DNA of 64,000 bases, from positions 1,798,001 through 1,862,000 of the forward strand of contig JAFCIZ010000006.1 in assembly GCA_017871115.1 (NCBI GenBank), read 5' to 3'. The translations under genes and the position numbers were made by a program. This document shows, one piece after another, positions 33,431 through 42,519 of this stretch (positions within the stretch are counted from its first letter, which is position 1; the number at the start of each line of letters is the position of its first letter). Source of the stretch: Cunninghamella blakesleeana. Its lineage: Eukaryota > Mucoromycota > Mucoromycetes > Mucorales > Cunninghamellaceae. Below the pieces are notes generated by a model. That model was not told the origin of the DNA, ran no database searches, and was given only the letters and a program-made list of their open reading frames with translations.

Positions 33431-34768
33431 ATGACACATTCAGTTTTATTATCTACAAGAGATCCAAAGCCAGATGATGGTATTGATCCCGGAGGATGTA
33501 AATTGATGGATTCCTTTGCTATATTTATACAGTTATGCCTTGCATCTATTGCCTTTTCTACACTTATTTTAAAACGACATCGGGAAAAACCTCAGCGTCC
33601 TTTACGTATATAGTAAATATCATAAATAAGTATATTTTATTAAAATTAAAATATAATAATAAAAAAAAAGACTCGAATAAACTGAGCAAACAGTAACATA
33701 AAATATATAAGCCTTTTCGATATTTCTAAGCAATTAGTAGGATCTATATTTATTCATTCATTAAATGTTATAGCAGCTTACTTTTTTGGTGTTAAAACCG
33801 AAGGCGAACAGTCAAATCCTTGCGTCTGGTAATAATAATATATTTATTAAATCTTATTACTATTATTATTTTAATAAACTAAATAACATATATATATATA
33901 TATATATACTGGTATATATTAGGTACTTTTTAAATATTTTAGTAGACTGTACGCTTGGTGTTGGGATACTATGGCTCGTACTTCAAGGGTTTAAATATTT
34001 AACTATATCTGTATTACAGTGGACTGGATTTCAATCTGGTGTCTATGGTGATCCGCCTTTGAAAGAACAAATAAAACCATGGCTTAAACAATTAACTGTC
34101 TACACACTTAGTTTAATGATCATGAAGGTATTGGTGGTATTGATCTTTCATCTTTGTCCTTGGTTGGAAGATTTTGGCTCTTGGGTATTAGGATGGACTT
34201 CTGGTAATTATAAATTACAAGTAGCCTTTGTTATGCTTGTGTAAGTGATAAAAGAAAACAAAATAAAAAAGGAATGATAAGAAATGAAAGCTAAATATTA
34301 TACATATATATTGTTTTTATTTTTAGATTTCCATTAATTATGAACATTCTTCAGTTCTGGATTATTGATAATATAGTAAAACACAATGATAAAAATCCAA
34401 TTCGATTGCGCCACCCCTATGGAGAAGATGATGATGTAGAAAACTTATTATCAACAATGGATAATGATAACGAGCACCATGACACGCGAGAAGGAAGTTT
34501 AGACGCAGAAAGTATCGCTATTGGAGAAGAATCATTAAGACCAATAAAACAAAATAAATCTAGAGTAGAAGATCAAACACCTTTACTGGATGATATACAG
34601 CGGAGGGAAAACGATTATCATAATGACAAAGGATCAACTGAAAATCTTCATGATATAGACCATCATCAGAATTTTTCACCCATATCAACATCTCATAATA
34701 ACAACAATAATAAAAATAATATTTATGAACTTGGATCAAATGATTTACATTTAGATAGATTAAAATAA
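33431..34768 (+). CDS. STIMATE / YPL162C-family multispanning membrane protein
   Basis: Four exons, 33431..33612, 33712..33828, 33923..34240 and 34327..34768, in phase, 352 residues. The family (animal STIMATE/TMEM110, yeast YPL162C) comprises multi-pass proteins; STIMATE works at ER-plasma membrane junctions in calcium entry, and the yeast member is on the vacuole. Visible hallmarks: a first helix (FAIFIQLCLASIAFSTLILK), the block RIYLFDISKQLVGSIFIHSLN, NPCVWYFLNILVDCTLGV, a long amphipathic segment with QTGxQSGxYGDPP-like spacing (TGFQSGVYGDPPLKEQIKPW), two more helices, and MNILQFWIIDNIVKH. The tail of about 120 residues is acidic and Asn/His-rich, probably cytosolic. The family call is secure; the compartment is not determinable here. 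Confidence 0.88.
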
Positions 34769-35107: not shown

Positions 35108-38100
35108 TTACATGGAATTAATATTATTTTCAGCTTCAAGCACGTTAACTAAAAAGAGATGAGATAAATTGCTCTGGTTTTCATTTTCATTCACTTTTGG
35201 ATAACTTGTTACAAATTGATTATTCATAGCACTCATTCTTGTTGATGGACCGTCAAAATAAATCATCACTAGTGTATTTAATAATTCTGCTTGTTTATTT
35301 TCCAAAGACCCACTTTGTAATTCAGCAAAAGTCAACCAACATTCACTAAGCTCGGTAAAAAACTGACTCCTTTCTTCACCAATTTCGCTTCCCATGATTT
35401 GATAGGCTTGATTGGCAACTTTGATTCCATCTTCTAATCCTCTTTCTTGATATGATATACTGCAAGCTTTTTTATATGCTTCCTTATTAAGAATCTATAT
35501 ATTATAACAATAAAATAAAAATAATAACTGTATGAATAAACTATACATATTTATATGTTTTGAATTATATTAAAGGTTCACCTTAATAATAATCTTCCCT
35601 AACTTTATAGCAATATGATTGAAGCCAATATTATTCAAGCCATTGTATTTAGTAATTAAAATATCATTGAGTAATAAGTGTGTACGCCATGAATCATTTA
35701 ACTGTTTAAAAATAATTATCTGTTCCAATGCATCAGAATGTTTATTTAGGTTGAATAATGATAACGCATTTGTAATAATTTGACCCATTGATATATATTG
35801 CAAATAAAGTTCATATAGCTGACAAAGGTTATCATTATCCCTAATGATTTCTCGTATTTTTGCTAACATTATTGATGATAATTTAATATCTATGCTCTCT
35901 GTATCGTTTTTATCATTGGTGTTTATATCATCAGCATCGATACTATTAGTAGTTGTATTCTAAAAATAATAATATATAATAAAAATAATAAGTATTTCGC
36001 TTTTTTTTTTTCAAATTTAAATACAATCCTTAAAATATAATCAGTAATATCTATATGCTTACTTTGACATGCTCATCAACTAGTTTAATATATGTTGCCA
36101 AAGTATTAACATCACCTGCAACTGCTAAAAACATATCAAATCTATATTTTTAAATAATAATAATAATAATAAAAACAATAACGTTAGGAAGATATAAATA
36201 AAATAAATTACCAGCATACATGTATAAATAAGTTTATATTTAAATTTATATATTTACCTTTCCAAAAATTTATTATTACTGCTTGTATAGTCACGAGTCG
36301 CTATAATCATATCTACAGCAATATCCATAGCGATTGAATCAAATGCTGTAACATCCATAGATTGATCATCAATTGATAGACTTTCATTAGAAGACTTTGT
36401 GTTATCATCATTGCCACCATCATAAGAATCGTCGTTATCCAAATCGTTAGATAATGAGTACTGTTCATGTTGGTTATACGTAACTACATTTTCTTGCACT
36501 GGTTCATCAAAAACGCTGTCGCTGATCGCTTCATAAGAATAATTCTTGGACGATTTGTTATATTCTTCCTCACCTAAACTTTGTTCAGAAACGCTGGCAT
36601 CACCCCATCCCCCATAATTATTTGCTGAAACTGTTGAAAGATAAGTTGAATCATTCACTGCTGTATCCTCATTGGTATTATTATTATAATTTTGGATTTC
36701 TTTTAAGAATATATCATTATCATGCTGTATAATATTCTATTTTTTTAATAAAAAAAAGTAATAAAAAAAGAAATTAATATAAACACTTCAATTATATATA
36801 TATATATATATATATATTATTAATACTAAAATTATAATTATTATTTTATTACCTTTAATTCATCTGGTATATATTTATCTAGTTCTTCTCTAGTTAAACA
36901 TGGTATGGATCGGTCAACATATAATAATGCAAATGGATTTCTTTCTTCATTCCAAACATCCTCTTCTTGTACACGTCGAACTTCCGCATCACAAAACCAA
37001 TACCAACCTCCATCTTCCACCTCAATATCTGCTAATAAATTTTTTTCGTTGGGTTCTACAAAAATATAGGCCCAATAATGGCCAGTGCCACTAAGCCCAT
37101 CCGTATATAAAACTGCACGTAAGTCATATGGTTTCTCTTGTAAACATGTATCATTAAAGATATCTTGTAGTTGCTGCTTCCTTTCAATTTCTATTTGCTT
37201 TAATTCTAAAATAAGAATAATAATAGACACAATTTCGTATACATACATATATATATATGTTAGTTTACATGAAAATAAATAAATAATATTATAAATATAT
37301 ATAAAAACTATAATACCTGTTTGCTTTTTTTCAATATTATTCTGAACTTGCTGTAAAACATTTTGTAAAGATTTTAAAGATTTAAAATAATCATTATTTT
37401 CTGGAATATCTTCTGCCGCTTTAATTTTATTATTAAAATAGGTAATGGTTGTGTCTAAAAGTTGATGTTTATTTAGATCATAATCACTATGTTGAATTTT
37501 TTGCAATTCATATTGTGTTCGCCTAATTTCTTTTCTAAGTTCATCAGCCTGTTGATATTTTTGTAATGATATCGATTTATTTGTATTAAGATACCGATCT
37601 AAATAGATTGTTTTTTCTACCGTATATGTTTTTTTGTTGGCTGCATTTTTAATTGTTTTAAAATCGCGTCTATCCTCTAATGTCATAAACAGCAATGGCG
37701 GAACTTGAGTGAAGGTAGTAAATTTATAAGGCAATACTTCATTTTCATCAGAGGCATTACTGATTATCTCATCATCAGGGTGAATTGTTGTTGAATCATC
37801 TTGAAAACTTTCATATATAAGAGGATCCAGACAGTCATAGAATGTTTTTGTTGTAGCATCAATACTTAAATTTAAATAATAAACTTCTTCTATATCAACT
37901 TCGTCACCACTACAAACTTCAGCTTGGAGTTGAAATAAACTAATAGAAATAAAAGAATGAAAAATAAGAAGAGTAAAAATCATAAGTATTTTTCATTTAT
38001 TTATACATATTGTATTTAATTTCAATAAACTTTGGTGACAAACTTACTCATGAAACGATAATAGCCCTTTTAACTCTTCATTATTTTTCATAAATTCATT

Positions 38101-38421
38101 GGTTTGATCGACTGATATTAGTCCACGGAAAAACAAATCCAAAAACTCTATAAAATTTAAACAACGATATGCATTAAGTAATGTATTCAATTTTTATCTT
38201 TTTTTTAACGGTCGTTATTTTTATAAGTATGACTTAAAATTACCATCGATGTTTTTATCATCCATTTTCCAATTGCTTGAAGATATTGCTGCGTTTGAAT
38301 TAAAAACTCGAATAAAATGTGATATGGATCCATACATTCTTTTACTATAGCTAAGAAATGTAAACAACTTTTGTAATTCTGCCAAGGCTAAAAATGGGTA
38401 GATAATTAAAACACAATAATG

Positions 38422-38457
<36 letters not shown>

Positions 38458-39899
38458 TTATTTTATTTGTTTTTTGAAAATTACCAAGTTGATCCTTAGA
38501 CATAGTAACAAACTCCGTCTTGTTTTCAATCGCATTGTTAGAAGTTGTCCTAAAAGTATCATTATCATTGTGATCTATAGCGGTAGTTTGCATTTGCATT
38601 GTTATTTCATCCATTGTATCACTATCATTATGTTTAATTATATATCCTGATACAGATTCACCAAACCCTTTCCAATAATTCCTAGTTGGCCCCCAATCAT
38701 AAGGCAATGGTCTGAAAGAAAGTATCGCAAAACGAAAGAGTGATATGTGAAACAACGCTTGAATAATTATTGGCGAATAGGCAAAATTATAAGAAGGTGG
38801 CCGTAAACCAATAGGCCTATTTTAAAAAGATATAAAATAAAAATCAGACCAATGAATTATAACTTATACTTTATATTCGCAAAACTAAAAAATAAAAACT
38901 CACTTATTATTTACGGTAGCACGATCTAATGGATTTTCTGGATCAGTCCACCATGTTAAATTAGCTTTTGTTAATCCTTGTTCATATTCTTCAGTCTTTT
39001 GTTCAGCTACTTCAGGCTATAAGTAAAATATAAAATATATAAAAAAATTACAAGTAATGAATAATTGTTTTATTTTAAAATATACCCATAGTTATTAATA
39101 TTCATATATACCGAAGAAATTACTTTTTCAACAAATGGGACTACACTCCATTGAGCAGAATCATGTATAATTGCTTGTCTTTTTATTTGGGGCTCAGTTT
39201 TTTCGTAATCTTTAGTTAAAATTGCTCGGCGTTCTAATTAAAAAGAAAAAAAGCATTTATTTTACTACAAGTATAATAGAAAACACTTAAATATTTAAAG
39301 ACAATGATAATATTTACCTTCAAAAGTATCATCCAAGTTAGCATCAACTGTATCTGAAGATAGGCTTTGGTGTTTTTGTTGTTGCTGTTGTTGTTCAGAA
39401 GTATATATATTTTCAAAAGAGCTAGACTGTGCCCAAGGAAACTCGCTCACCTATTTAAACACGATAGTGAGAAAAAAAAATTAATATTAGAAACAAAGTT
39501 ATATACACATATATGCATATTTATTATTTAATATTTATACTAGCTTCTTACATCATCCGAATCTGAATCAGCGTTTCCAGAAAATACGTAATCTGCAGCT
39601 CTTTCGACATTGTTATTATATCGCTAGATAAAAATCGTAAAAAATAAAGTAAAATGAATAAAAGTTAGCATAAAATAGCAGTTTTCGATAAGGTTGATAT
39701 TATATATGTACTGATACAAAAAAATATACTCCATCTTAATTTAATATATTCTGTTATAACGTACGTTCAGTGCTTTAATTGCTTTTTTACGGTCAATGCC
39801 CTACTTGAAAAAATTATAATAGATAAAATAGACTAGAATTAAAACTACTATTTAACAGACTAGCGCACACTAATATATTTAACATATTGTATTATCTAT

Positions 39900-39930
<31 letters not shown>

Positions 39931-40030
39931 CTCATTTATTTATTCTATGTAATAATCAATAATAACAATACCAACTTACCAACATTTCCAGTTGAGAAAC
40001 TGCATCTTCGATGCTAGATTCTGTTGCCAT
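35108..40030 (-). CDS. UBP2/USP25/28-like ubiquitin protease homologue, probably catalytically dead
   Basis: Fifteen exons in phase: 40030..39980, 39800..39765, 39623..39552, 39450..39318, 39233..39112, 39016..38904, 38816..38485, 38387..38244, 38147..38048, 37939..37317, 37205..36853, 36736..36258, 36141..36063, 35959..35582 and 35494..35108. They give 1133 residues. A UBA-like domain (about 12-45, GIDRKKAIKALNRYNNNVER) is followed by Gln-rich linker and a USP fold split by a long helical insert (about 480-575), then an extended helical C-terminus, the layout of UBP2 and USP25/28. The Cys box, normally G-N-T-C-Y, reads Y-N-F-A188-Y before SPIIIQALFHI. The His box is intact (GTGH618YWAYIF). 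The third triad position, usually Asn/Asp in a YND motif, is Cys647 (WFCD). With nucleophile and third residue gone, it should bind but not cleave ubiquitin. Confidence 0.88.
39897..39944. repeat. ATTT tetranucleotide microsatellite in an intron
   Basis: Roughly eight perfect TTTA units followed by a short interrupted tail, lying in intron 1 (39979..39801) of the UBP2/USP25/28-like gene. Confidence 0.85.
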
Positions 40031-40240: not shown

Positions 40241-41934
40241 ATGAAAAAAAAGAAAGTAAGCATTAGTTTTAATATGCGACCTATTATCATTGTCTTTATT
40301 TTTATTATCATTAGTATTTTATTTATTTTATGAAATAAAAAAAAAAATAAAAAATAGTATAGCTTACCAAAAATACATCCTTTATCTTATCATAAACTAA
40401 CAGCTCACTCTCTCCAAAACAATGATTATATAGGTTTTATTGATGGGTAAAAGTGGATCTGGAAAAACTTCCATGCGTTCTATTATTTTTAGTAACTATA
40501 TTGCTCGAGATACAAGACGATTGGGTGCTACAAGTAATACTTGAAAACATTTTATTTATAAATATAAAAAAGTTTCTACAAATATTTATATCACTCGATT
40601 TTTTTATTTTTTAATACTTTTTATAGTCGATGTGGAACACTCTAATGTAAAATTCTTGGGTAACCTTGTATTAAACCTATGGGACTGTGGAGGGTAAAGT
40701 AAATAGCGATGAAAAGGAAGAAAAAAAAAGAAAAGAAAATCATATTTAAAAAAGAAAAAAAAGTGTTAATACATATTTTATTATTATCATTGGTAGTCAA
40801 GAAGCATTTATGGAAAATTATTTTGCATCACAAAGAGATCGGATATTTAAGAACGTTGAAGTGCTTATATATGTGTTTGATGTAGAAAGTAGAGACTGGG
40901 AAAAGGATTTGCATTATTATCAATCATGTTTAGATGCAATATTAGCGAATTCGAAGGAAGCTCGAATATTCTGTCTTATTCATAAAATGGATCTTGTACC
41001 AGAACATCAACGTAACGAAGTAATAAATGATAATCAATTTACTTTTCGATGTAAAAACATGAAATCAAAGATAATTTATTAATTTCATTTATCCTTTTTC
41101 AAATATATATACTATATAGATATTTAATGGAAGATTACAAGAGCTACGTAAACGATCTGAACCTTTACATATTGAAGGTTATTGTACATCTATTTGGGAT
41201 GAAACTTTATATGCAGTAAGATCATTTATATATATATACATAAATAAATAATAATATATAGATGCATAATGATATTATTTATTTTTTTGGTATTTCTTAT
41301 CGTCGCTTTTTTTTTTTTTTTTTTTATAGGCATGGTCTCAGATTGTTCATTGTTTAATTCCCAACATTCGTACATTGGAGTCCCATCTTGATAATTTTTG
41401 TAGAATTTGTGACGCTGATGAAGTCGTATTATTTGAACGGACTACCTTTTTGGTAATTGCTAACGCCGCTACCATTAAACATCAAGATCTCCATCGCTTT
41501 GAAAAAATTAGTAATATCATAAAACAATTTAATTTAGGTTGCAGGTAATAATAAAAAAAGAAACGAGACGTATCAAATCGAAAAAAGGTACACATTTATA
41601 ATATATAACTTATTACTTATTTCATTGCATTTTTATATATTTATTTCATATAGTCGATCACAAACCAGATTCAAAAGCATGGAAATTCGAGGAAGTTCAT
41701 TCACCGCGTTTATTGATGTACTTACAAACAACACCTATGCAATGATTATAATGTCTGATCCTCATATTCGTAAGTGATTTAAATTACATCTACATGTTCG
41801 TGTGTCTATCTATTCATATTCATAACGGTGATGGTTTGATTAATTTTATTTATGTATATATAGAATCTGCTGCTACGCTACTTAACATTGCAGCTGCTAA
41901 AAAGCATTTTGAAAAATTGGAAGGTCCCCAATAA
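40241..41934 (+). CDS. GTR1: Rag-family small GTPase GTR1/RagA
   Basis: Eight exons: 40241..40255, 40434..40533, 40627..40693, 40797..41019, 41120..41215, 41330..41544, 41654..41769 and 41864..41934. In phase, 300 residues. Gtr1 pairs with Gtr2 on the vacuole/lysosome and relays amino-acid sufficiency to TORC1. The G1 loop is [13 protein letters not shown]. Switch regions include RRLGATIDVEHS and [15 protein letters not shown], and G4 is the family-typical HKMDL. The C-terminal roadblock-like domain shows [23 protein letters not shown] and [20 protein letters not shown]. Sequence features match RagA/Gtr1, not RagC/Gtr2. The first coding exon has only five codons (MKKKK) before a 178-nt intron. 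Confidence 0.97.
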
Positions 41935-42519
41935 TCATTTCAATCAAGTTACCCATTTATACTTTTTTATATGTATTTTTTTTAAAAAAAAGACTGATTT
42001 TTCCCTTTACACTCTATATATATAACAAATTCGCAGAAACTGAAAAATCAACAGCCATTTTTGTATCTTATATTTTTATACTACATTATTATGAATATTA
42101 AAAAATAAAAAACGAGGTATAAACTATTTGAATTATGATTTAATGTAAACTATAAAAATTATTTTGCTCTCACTTTCAATATAATAGTTACAAAAAGAAA
42201 GGAAAGCACACTTTCTTCAACGACGCCTTACATATTTTAATTTTTCTTTTTTAACTTTTGGTGTCCATATATATATAAATTATAATAATAATATGTTTTA
42301 ACTTAAATAAAACTATTAAAAAAAAAAAATGAAAATAATATTGATCATAGTTATGTAATGAGTACAATAGAATAAAAATATTTTAATTATAAAAAGAATA
42401 ATTCTCCTCAAACAGAAAAAACTAACGGAGTTTAAATGATGATCACTTTTATTTTTTTTAACAACCTAATTTTTTTTTCTCCACTTCTTTACACTCTTTT
42501 ATATTTTATTTTTTTAATT
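41935..42519. other. Intergenic region, no gene seen
   Basis: Lies between two plus-strand genes. A TTTTTTT-AAAAAAA switch lies at about 41977-41992. The in-frame ATG at 42436 upstream of the next gene would add a T-rich hydrophobic stretch, and I treat it as leader. Confidence 0.5.

Follow-up and report, generated by a model that had tools for sequence, protein, structure and literature searches.

A USP25/28-type gene of Cunninghamella blakesleeana encodes a putative pseudo-deubiquitinase with relatives in Mucorales and Glomeromycetes

A 64 kb stretch of the Cunninghamella blakesleeana genome (contig JAFCIZ010000006.1, positions 1,798,001–1,862,000 of the forward strand; "the window" below means this whole stretch) carries a minus-strand gene for a ubiquitin-specific protease (USP) that lacks the nucleophilic cysteine. 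On balance, the explanation favored here is that it is a dead USP25/28-type deubiquitinase (DUB), that catalysis, on the simplest view, disappeared a single time ahead of the split between Mucorales and Glomeromycetes, and that the protein was kept as a non-catalytic partner, likely as the Rup1 of this fungus.

A sequence-only reading of this locus had described a complete gene of 15 in-phase exons and 1133 residues with an intact frame, and a scripted splice rebuild gave the same structure, with GT-AG borders at 14/14 introns. The span highlighted in that reading (36853–38816) corresponds to exons 7–11, i.e., the USP domain. The gene and its terminal domains, in window coordinates, are:

35108..40030, minus strand: whole pseudo-USP gene, script-built splice model of 15 exons, 1133 amino acids plus stop
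40030-39980, 39800-39765, 39623-39552, 39450-39318, 39233-39112, minus strand: exons 1–5 of the splice model
39016-38904, 38816-38485, 38387-38244, 38147-38048, 37939-37317, minus strand: exons 6–10 of the splice model
37205-36853, 36736-36258, 36141-36063, 35959-35582, 35494-35108, minus strand: exons 11–15 of the splice model
39552..40030, minus strand: UBA domain, residues ~8–53, exons 1–3 (Pfam UBA_7 PF22562, E 3.6e-6)
35108..36352, minus strand: C-terminal helical domain, residues ~822–1133 (predicted model and a weak match to the USP25 C-terminal domain profile, 6hem, E 5.2e-4)

Pfam UCH is still detected in the protein (E 2.7e-10), and the UBA domain, helical insert, His box and long C-terminus that had been recognized from the sequence were all recovered by Pfam, profiles, the model or alignment. 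The closest homologue, from C. echinulata (P0001), is 90% identical over its full length, and the alignment to USP28 was made through this protein, after which the codons in the window were checked. The catalytic region contains:

38789..38800, minus strand: PPSY, residues 182–185, a PPxY-like motif within the former Cys loop (motif and codon check)
38780..38782, minus strand: Ala188 codon at the USP nucleophile position, C171 in USP28 (alignment and codon check)
38143..38259, minus strand: degenerate QQD box DKNIDEF, divided between exons 8 and 9 (alignment)
37078..37080, minus strand: His618 codon, the retained USP histidine (alignment and codon check)
36991..36993, minus strand: Cys647 codon at the third triad position, followed by Asp648 (alignment and codon check)

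The Cys box reads PIGLRPPSYNFAYSPIIIQALF; the counterpart of the USP28 box is IGLRPPSYNFAYSPIIIQALF, with one inserted residue and Ala188 replacing C171. The QQD box, which forms the groove for the ubiquitin tail, has degenerated from QQDVSEF to DKNIDEF, and YND has become FCD (C647, D648), while GHYWAYI is intact around H618. In USP15 the third triad residue is dispensable and the fourth, an Asp, performs its work (PMC10867860), so the substitution at the third position alone would be no proof of inactivity; it is the lost nucleophile that decides. Alignment and codons thus bear out the dismantled Cys box, third-position Cys and degenerate QQD region of the sequence-only reading, and a catalytically dead USP, i.e., a pseudoprotease, is strongly supported at the level of sequence. 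That reading could have been overturned by an alternative exon supplying a Cys box; such an exon was rejected after a six-frame scan of the 64 kb window, in which the strict Cys-box pattern had no matches, the scan being blind to a motif split by an intron. The five looser NxC strings in the window are plus-strand without exception, and the one at 37312 runs antisense within the pseudo-USP gene.

The age of the loss could be explored among homologues. From the matches listed in three protein searches, 35 family members were collected (20 Mucorales and 15 Glomeromycetes, assigned by species name with two lineages looked up); P0022 and P0023, which are UBP2s, were excluded. All 35 make up alignment A3; profile A1 has 15 members. 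In A3, the nucleophile column holds a residue in 28/35 members (18 Mucorales and 10 Glomeromycetes), and that residue is never Cys (0/28; A8 P4 S4 Y4 G4 N2 T1 H1); the remaining seven are gapped there and are apparently partial or differently predicted gene models. In the protein of Glomus cerebriforme (P0035) a Cys directly follows the nucleophile position (NYGCAGP), the sole case among the 28 scored. The Asp of the QQD box is likewise lost in 30/30 members with a residue at that column, while the fourth critical residue is D in 33/34. Within Mucorales, column majorities average 0.58 for the main USP part, 0.62 for the USP end and 0.54 for the C-terminal domain, compared to 0.43–0.46 for the linker, the insertion and disordered stretches. 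Most simply, the catalytic cysteine was lost once, before the divergence of Mucorales and Glomeromycetes, with the protein retained since, making the putative pseudoprotease far older than could be told from one sequence. In a tree of 14 of the 35 members (P0029 was excluded as an over-long cut-out, and the outgroup is a long branch), the members form one clade with support of 100/99. No homologue from Mortierella, chytrids or Basidiomycota was found among the matches listed, where the best 7990 and 7995 candidates by shared words were scored. The record for the Parasitella parasitica member (P0006) also contains a polysaccharide deacetylase domain (PF01522), perhaps two genes fused in annotation.

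The label UBP2/USP25/28 given from the sequence alone could be narrowed, with the USP25/28 part upheld and the UBP2 part not. The family profile matches USP25 at E 1.2e-49 and USP28 at E 3.5e-49, compared to 1.1e-19 to 7.6e-19 for three UBP2s; the nearest solved USPs are USP25/28 (profile E 2.5e-46), the next other USP being USP35 at 4.5e-7. The USP fold with a helical insertion, together with the N-terminal UBA and the C-terminal helical domain, the latter by its weak match, are features of the USP25/28 family, to which the protein belongs on sequence rather than to UBP2. No second family copy was found in the genome among the best candidates scored; 13 of the 14 matches lie at the window locus and the other is UBA-like (E 0.04). 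The search for an active paralogue that had been suggested earlier did turn up a separate UBP2-like gene (matches at C1:4259806-4262136, exons partly rebuilt), active-looking with the intact motifs GLNNIGNTCYLNSLLQ, GKQQDVTEC and GHYWLYI...FNDSTV.

In yeast, Saccharomyces cerevisiae Ubp2 binds the UBA protein Rup1, seemingly completely and likely in equal amounts, and Rup1 tethers Ubp2 to Rsp5, partly via PPPSY at residues 131–135 (PMC2626285). Rup1 stimulates the self-ubiquitination of Rsp5 and reportedly makes Ubp2 more active in vitro, its role being termed physiologically unclear (PMC3777918); in fission yeast, Ubp2 binds Ucp6 (PMC2935449). At C1:1070091-1072607 the C. blakesleeana genome also has three WW and two HECT matches that share a strand, an Rsp5-type layout. 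As proposed, the UBA domain and USP body of the pseudo-USP would bind both ubiquitinated cargo and the live Ubp2 and deliver them to the Rsp5 ligase, and the contact with Ubp2 would be the helical insertion that permits USP28 to homodimerize, so that an active USP would be paired with an inactive relative. The insertion is:

37162..37587, minus strand: helical insertion, residues ~486–590, counterpart of the USP28 dimerization insertion (model, VIA alignment and interface positions); boundaries transferred by hand from P0001 478–582, the genomic span containing intron 10

USP28 dimerizes via this insertion, its pairs V541/L545 and L415/I419 occur as Glu-mutant constructs, and charge changes at L548/L552, the USP25 counterparts of V541/L545, turn USP25 monomeric (PMC6509359). 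Carried over manually from the alignment to the family members, the USP28 interface positions are hydrophobic in 18/35 members at V541, 35/35 at L545, 30/34 at L415 and 31/34 at I419, compared to an insertion-helix mean of 28%. UBP2 aligns with the first insertion helix and has Trp at the L415 site, as do 10/20 Mucorales members. A heterodimer of Ubp2 and its dead partner through the insertion is suggested because USP28 dimerizes there, the interface positions are mostly hydrophobic and UBP2 shares the first helix.

Identity with Rup1 was explored with a provisional sequence, which we take to be that of Rup1 (645 residues, with PPPSY at 131–135 as published). Whole, it matches profile A3 at E 7.2e-16 (0/200 shuffles at E <=10), and residues 101–645, which omit the UBA, match at 4.4e-7. 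Residues 141–645 score 31.8 bits, whereas the best of 1000 block shuffles reaches 3.7 and the reversed sequence -2.9. By hhalign the whole sequence reaches a probability of 97.4, with a loose alignment that runs collinearly over 2–631, UBA to final strands, and a strict one over 236–543; residues 141–645 alone reach 86.2, compared to <=1.9 in 30 shuffles. Should the provisional sequence be correct, Rup1 probably belongs to the pseudo-USP family, in a more decayed form. The PPxY within the Cys loop occurs in the window protein and in 12 of the 18 Mucorales proteins covering the box, and is missing in Phycomyces (PPSH), Phascolomyces, Circinella and Zychaea (PPQF); for comparison, any PPxY occurs in 82/1750 shuffled proteins. 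The motif may dock WW domains or be merely structural.

Several observations weigh against a Rup1-like partner of Ubp2. Because the Rup1 sequence used is provisional, the link is a lead and not a test. Its non-UBA part matches only weakly with A1 (0.044) and with a Mucorales-only profile (8.1e-4), and has no match to a Glomeromycete-only profile (1.2e3). Searched against this genome, the provisional sequence gave no match, an empty result that is uninformative for a search of this kind. PPxY is absent anywhere in the Glomeromycete proteins (0/15), and direct homology between the Cys-loop PPxY and the Rup1 PPPSY was rejected, as PPPSY aligns upstream of the loop. The V541 position is Thr in 16/35 members, 13 of them among the 15 Glomeromycetes, and the branching order of UBP2 and USP25/28 in the tree is weakly supported (80/64). 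The material examined showed no such interaction for any of the fungi concerned.

The alternative that survives best, unlikely as we consider it, is an independent scaffold, a USP25/28-like homodimer with partners of its own and unrelated to Ubp2 or Rsp5. It would suit the dimerization of the closest relative, USP28, via the insertion (PMC6509359), the retention of the insertion and most interface positions, and the weakness of the Rup1 match with sub-profiles; set against it, the provisional Rup1 sequence does match the full profile, and Ubp2–Rup1 and Ubp2–Ucp6 pairs are known. We think it improbable that the dead USP domain is instead a decoy, still binding ubiquitin at the S1 site and thereby competing with active DUBs. 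The USP fold and UBA are present and the catalytic His is kept in 19/19 Mucorales members covering the position, but the QQD box is degenerate wherever it is readable, and in Glomeromycetes the His column (n = 14) is N in seven, Q in four, H in two and R in one; a modelled fold that persists while 12/14 have replaced the His fits a binding surface elsewhere. Of the two roles in the sequence-only reading, competitor or scaffold of an active paralogue, the competitor is for the same QQD degeneracy not favored, and a partner or scaffold fits better. A cryptically active protease using another cysteine, e.g., C647 beside H618, is very improbable. The position of C647, column 639 of P0001, is Cys in 17/19 Mucorales members covering it, beside the retained His; USP39 and USP52 lack the classical triad and have been argued to be active, which is disputed (PMC10919355), and USP53/54 were wrongly labelled dead before being proved active (PMC12037411). 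The USP54 structure has a canonical triad (PMC12037411), whereas the pseudo-USP is without a nucleophile, and C647 occupies the third position of the triad, where the two Phycomyces proteins have S or R and Glomeromycetes have Q in 7/15 and C in only 3/15. An artefact of gene model or sequencing, or a decaying pseudogene, can be dismissed, since the 15-exon frame is intact, the identical box recurs in C. echinulata and across other genera, and the six-frame scan of the window gave no alternative strict Cys box.

The pseudo-USP gene has a head-to-head neighbor at 40440–41940 (plus strand), ~400 bases from its start, whose open frames are presumably those of a Rag GTPase of Gtr1/RagA type, judging by WDCGG and HKMDLV stretches. 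The convergent downstream frames (33774–34768, plus strand) we take to encode a multi-pass membrane protein of STIMATE/TMEM110 type.

Beyond the partner of Ubp2 favored here lies a bolder and rather doubtful proposal, that Rup1, Ucp6 and the pseudo-USP family are one lineage, with catalysis lost before the Mucoromycota/Dikarya split and the protein serving as the dead half of an insertion-joined Ubp2 heterodimer, many Mucorales loops then having been rebuilt as a PPxY able to dock the WW domains of Rsp5. Pseudo-USPs are few and their origins poorly dated; here they form a recognizable clade in the USP25/28 branch beside an intact-motif UBP2-like gene, and if the link to Rup1 is true, the role of Rup1 can be explained structurally, as that of the inactive half of a USP pair in control of Rsp5. 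In the literature covered (titles and abstract openings, with subscription journals mostly outside), no fungal USP25/28-type pseudo-DUB was named and Rup1 was nowhere termed a USP.

Among known systems, USP39/Sad1 and USP52/PAN2 belong to different USP branches and to splicing and deadenylation complexes, respectively. They too have a USP domain without the classical triad and are part of larger complexes (PMC10919355). Human USP25 and USP28 share with the pseudo-USP the UBA (USP25), the lead-in W.DP..P..R, the USP fold, an equally placed helical insertion and the C-terminal helical domain, but in the pseudo-USP the nucleophile Cys is gone, as are the QQD box and the Asn at the third triad position, and activity is not expected. 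Ubp2 is alike in that the USP of P0022 is nearest to USP28 among solved structures, and unlike in its intact active motifs and, in P0022, RPT repeats and no UBA match. Rup1 and Ucp6 share the N-terminal UBA, and the provisional Rup1 sequence matches the 35-member profile across palm and insertion; it is more degenerate, without a Pfam UCH match, and its PPPSY lies outside the loop that holds PPSY in the pseudo-USP. A comparable active/inactive pair is BRCC36–Abraxas.
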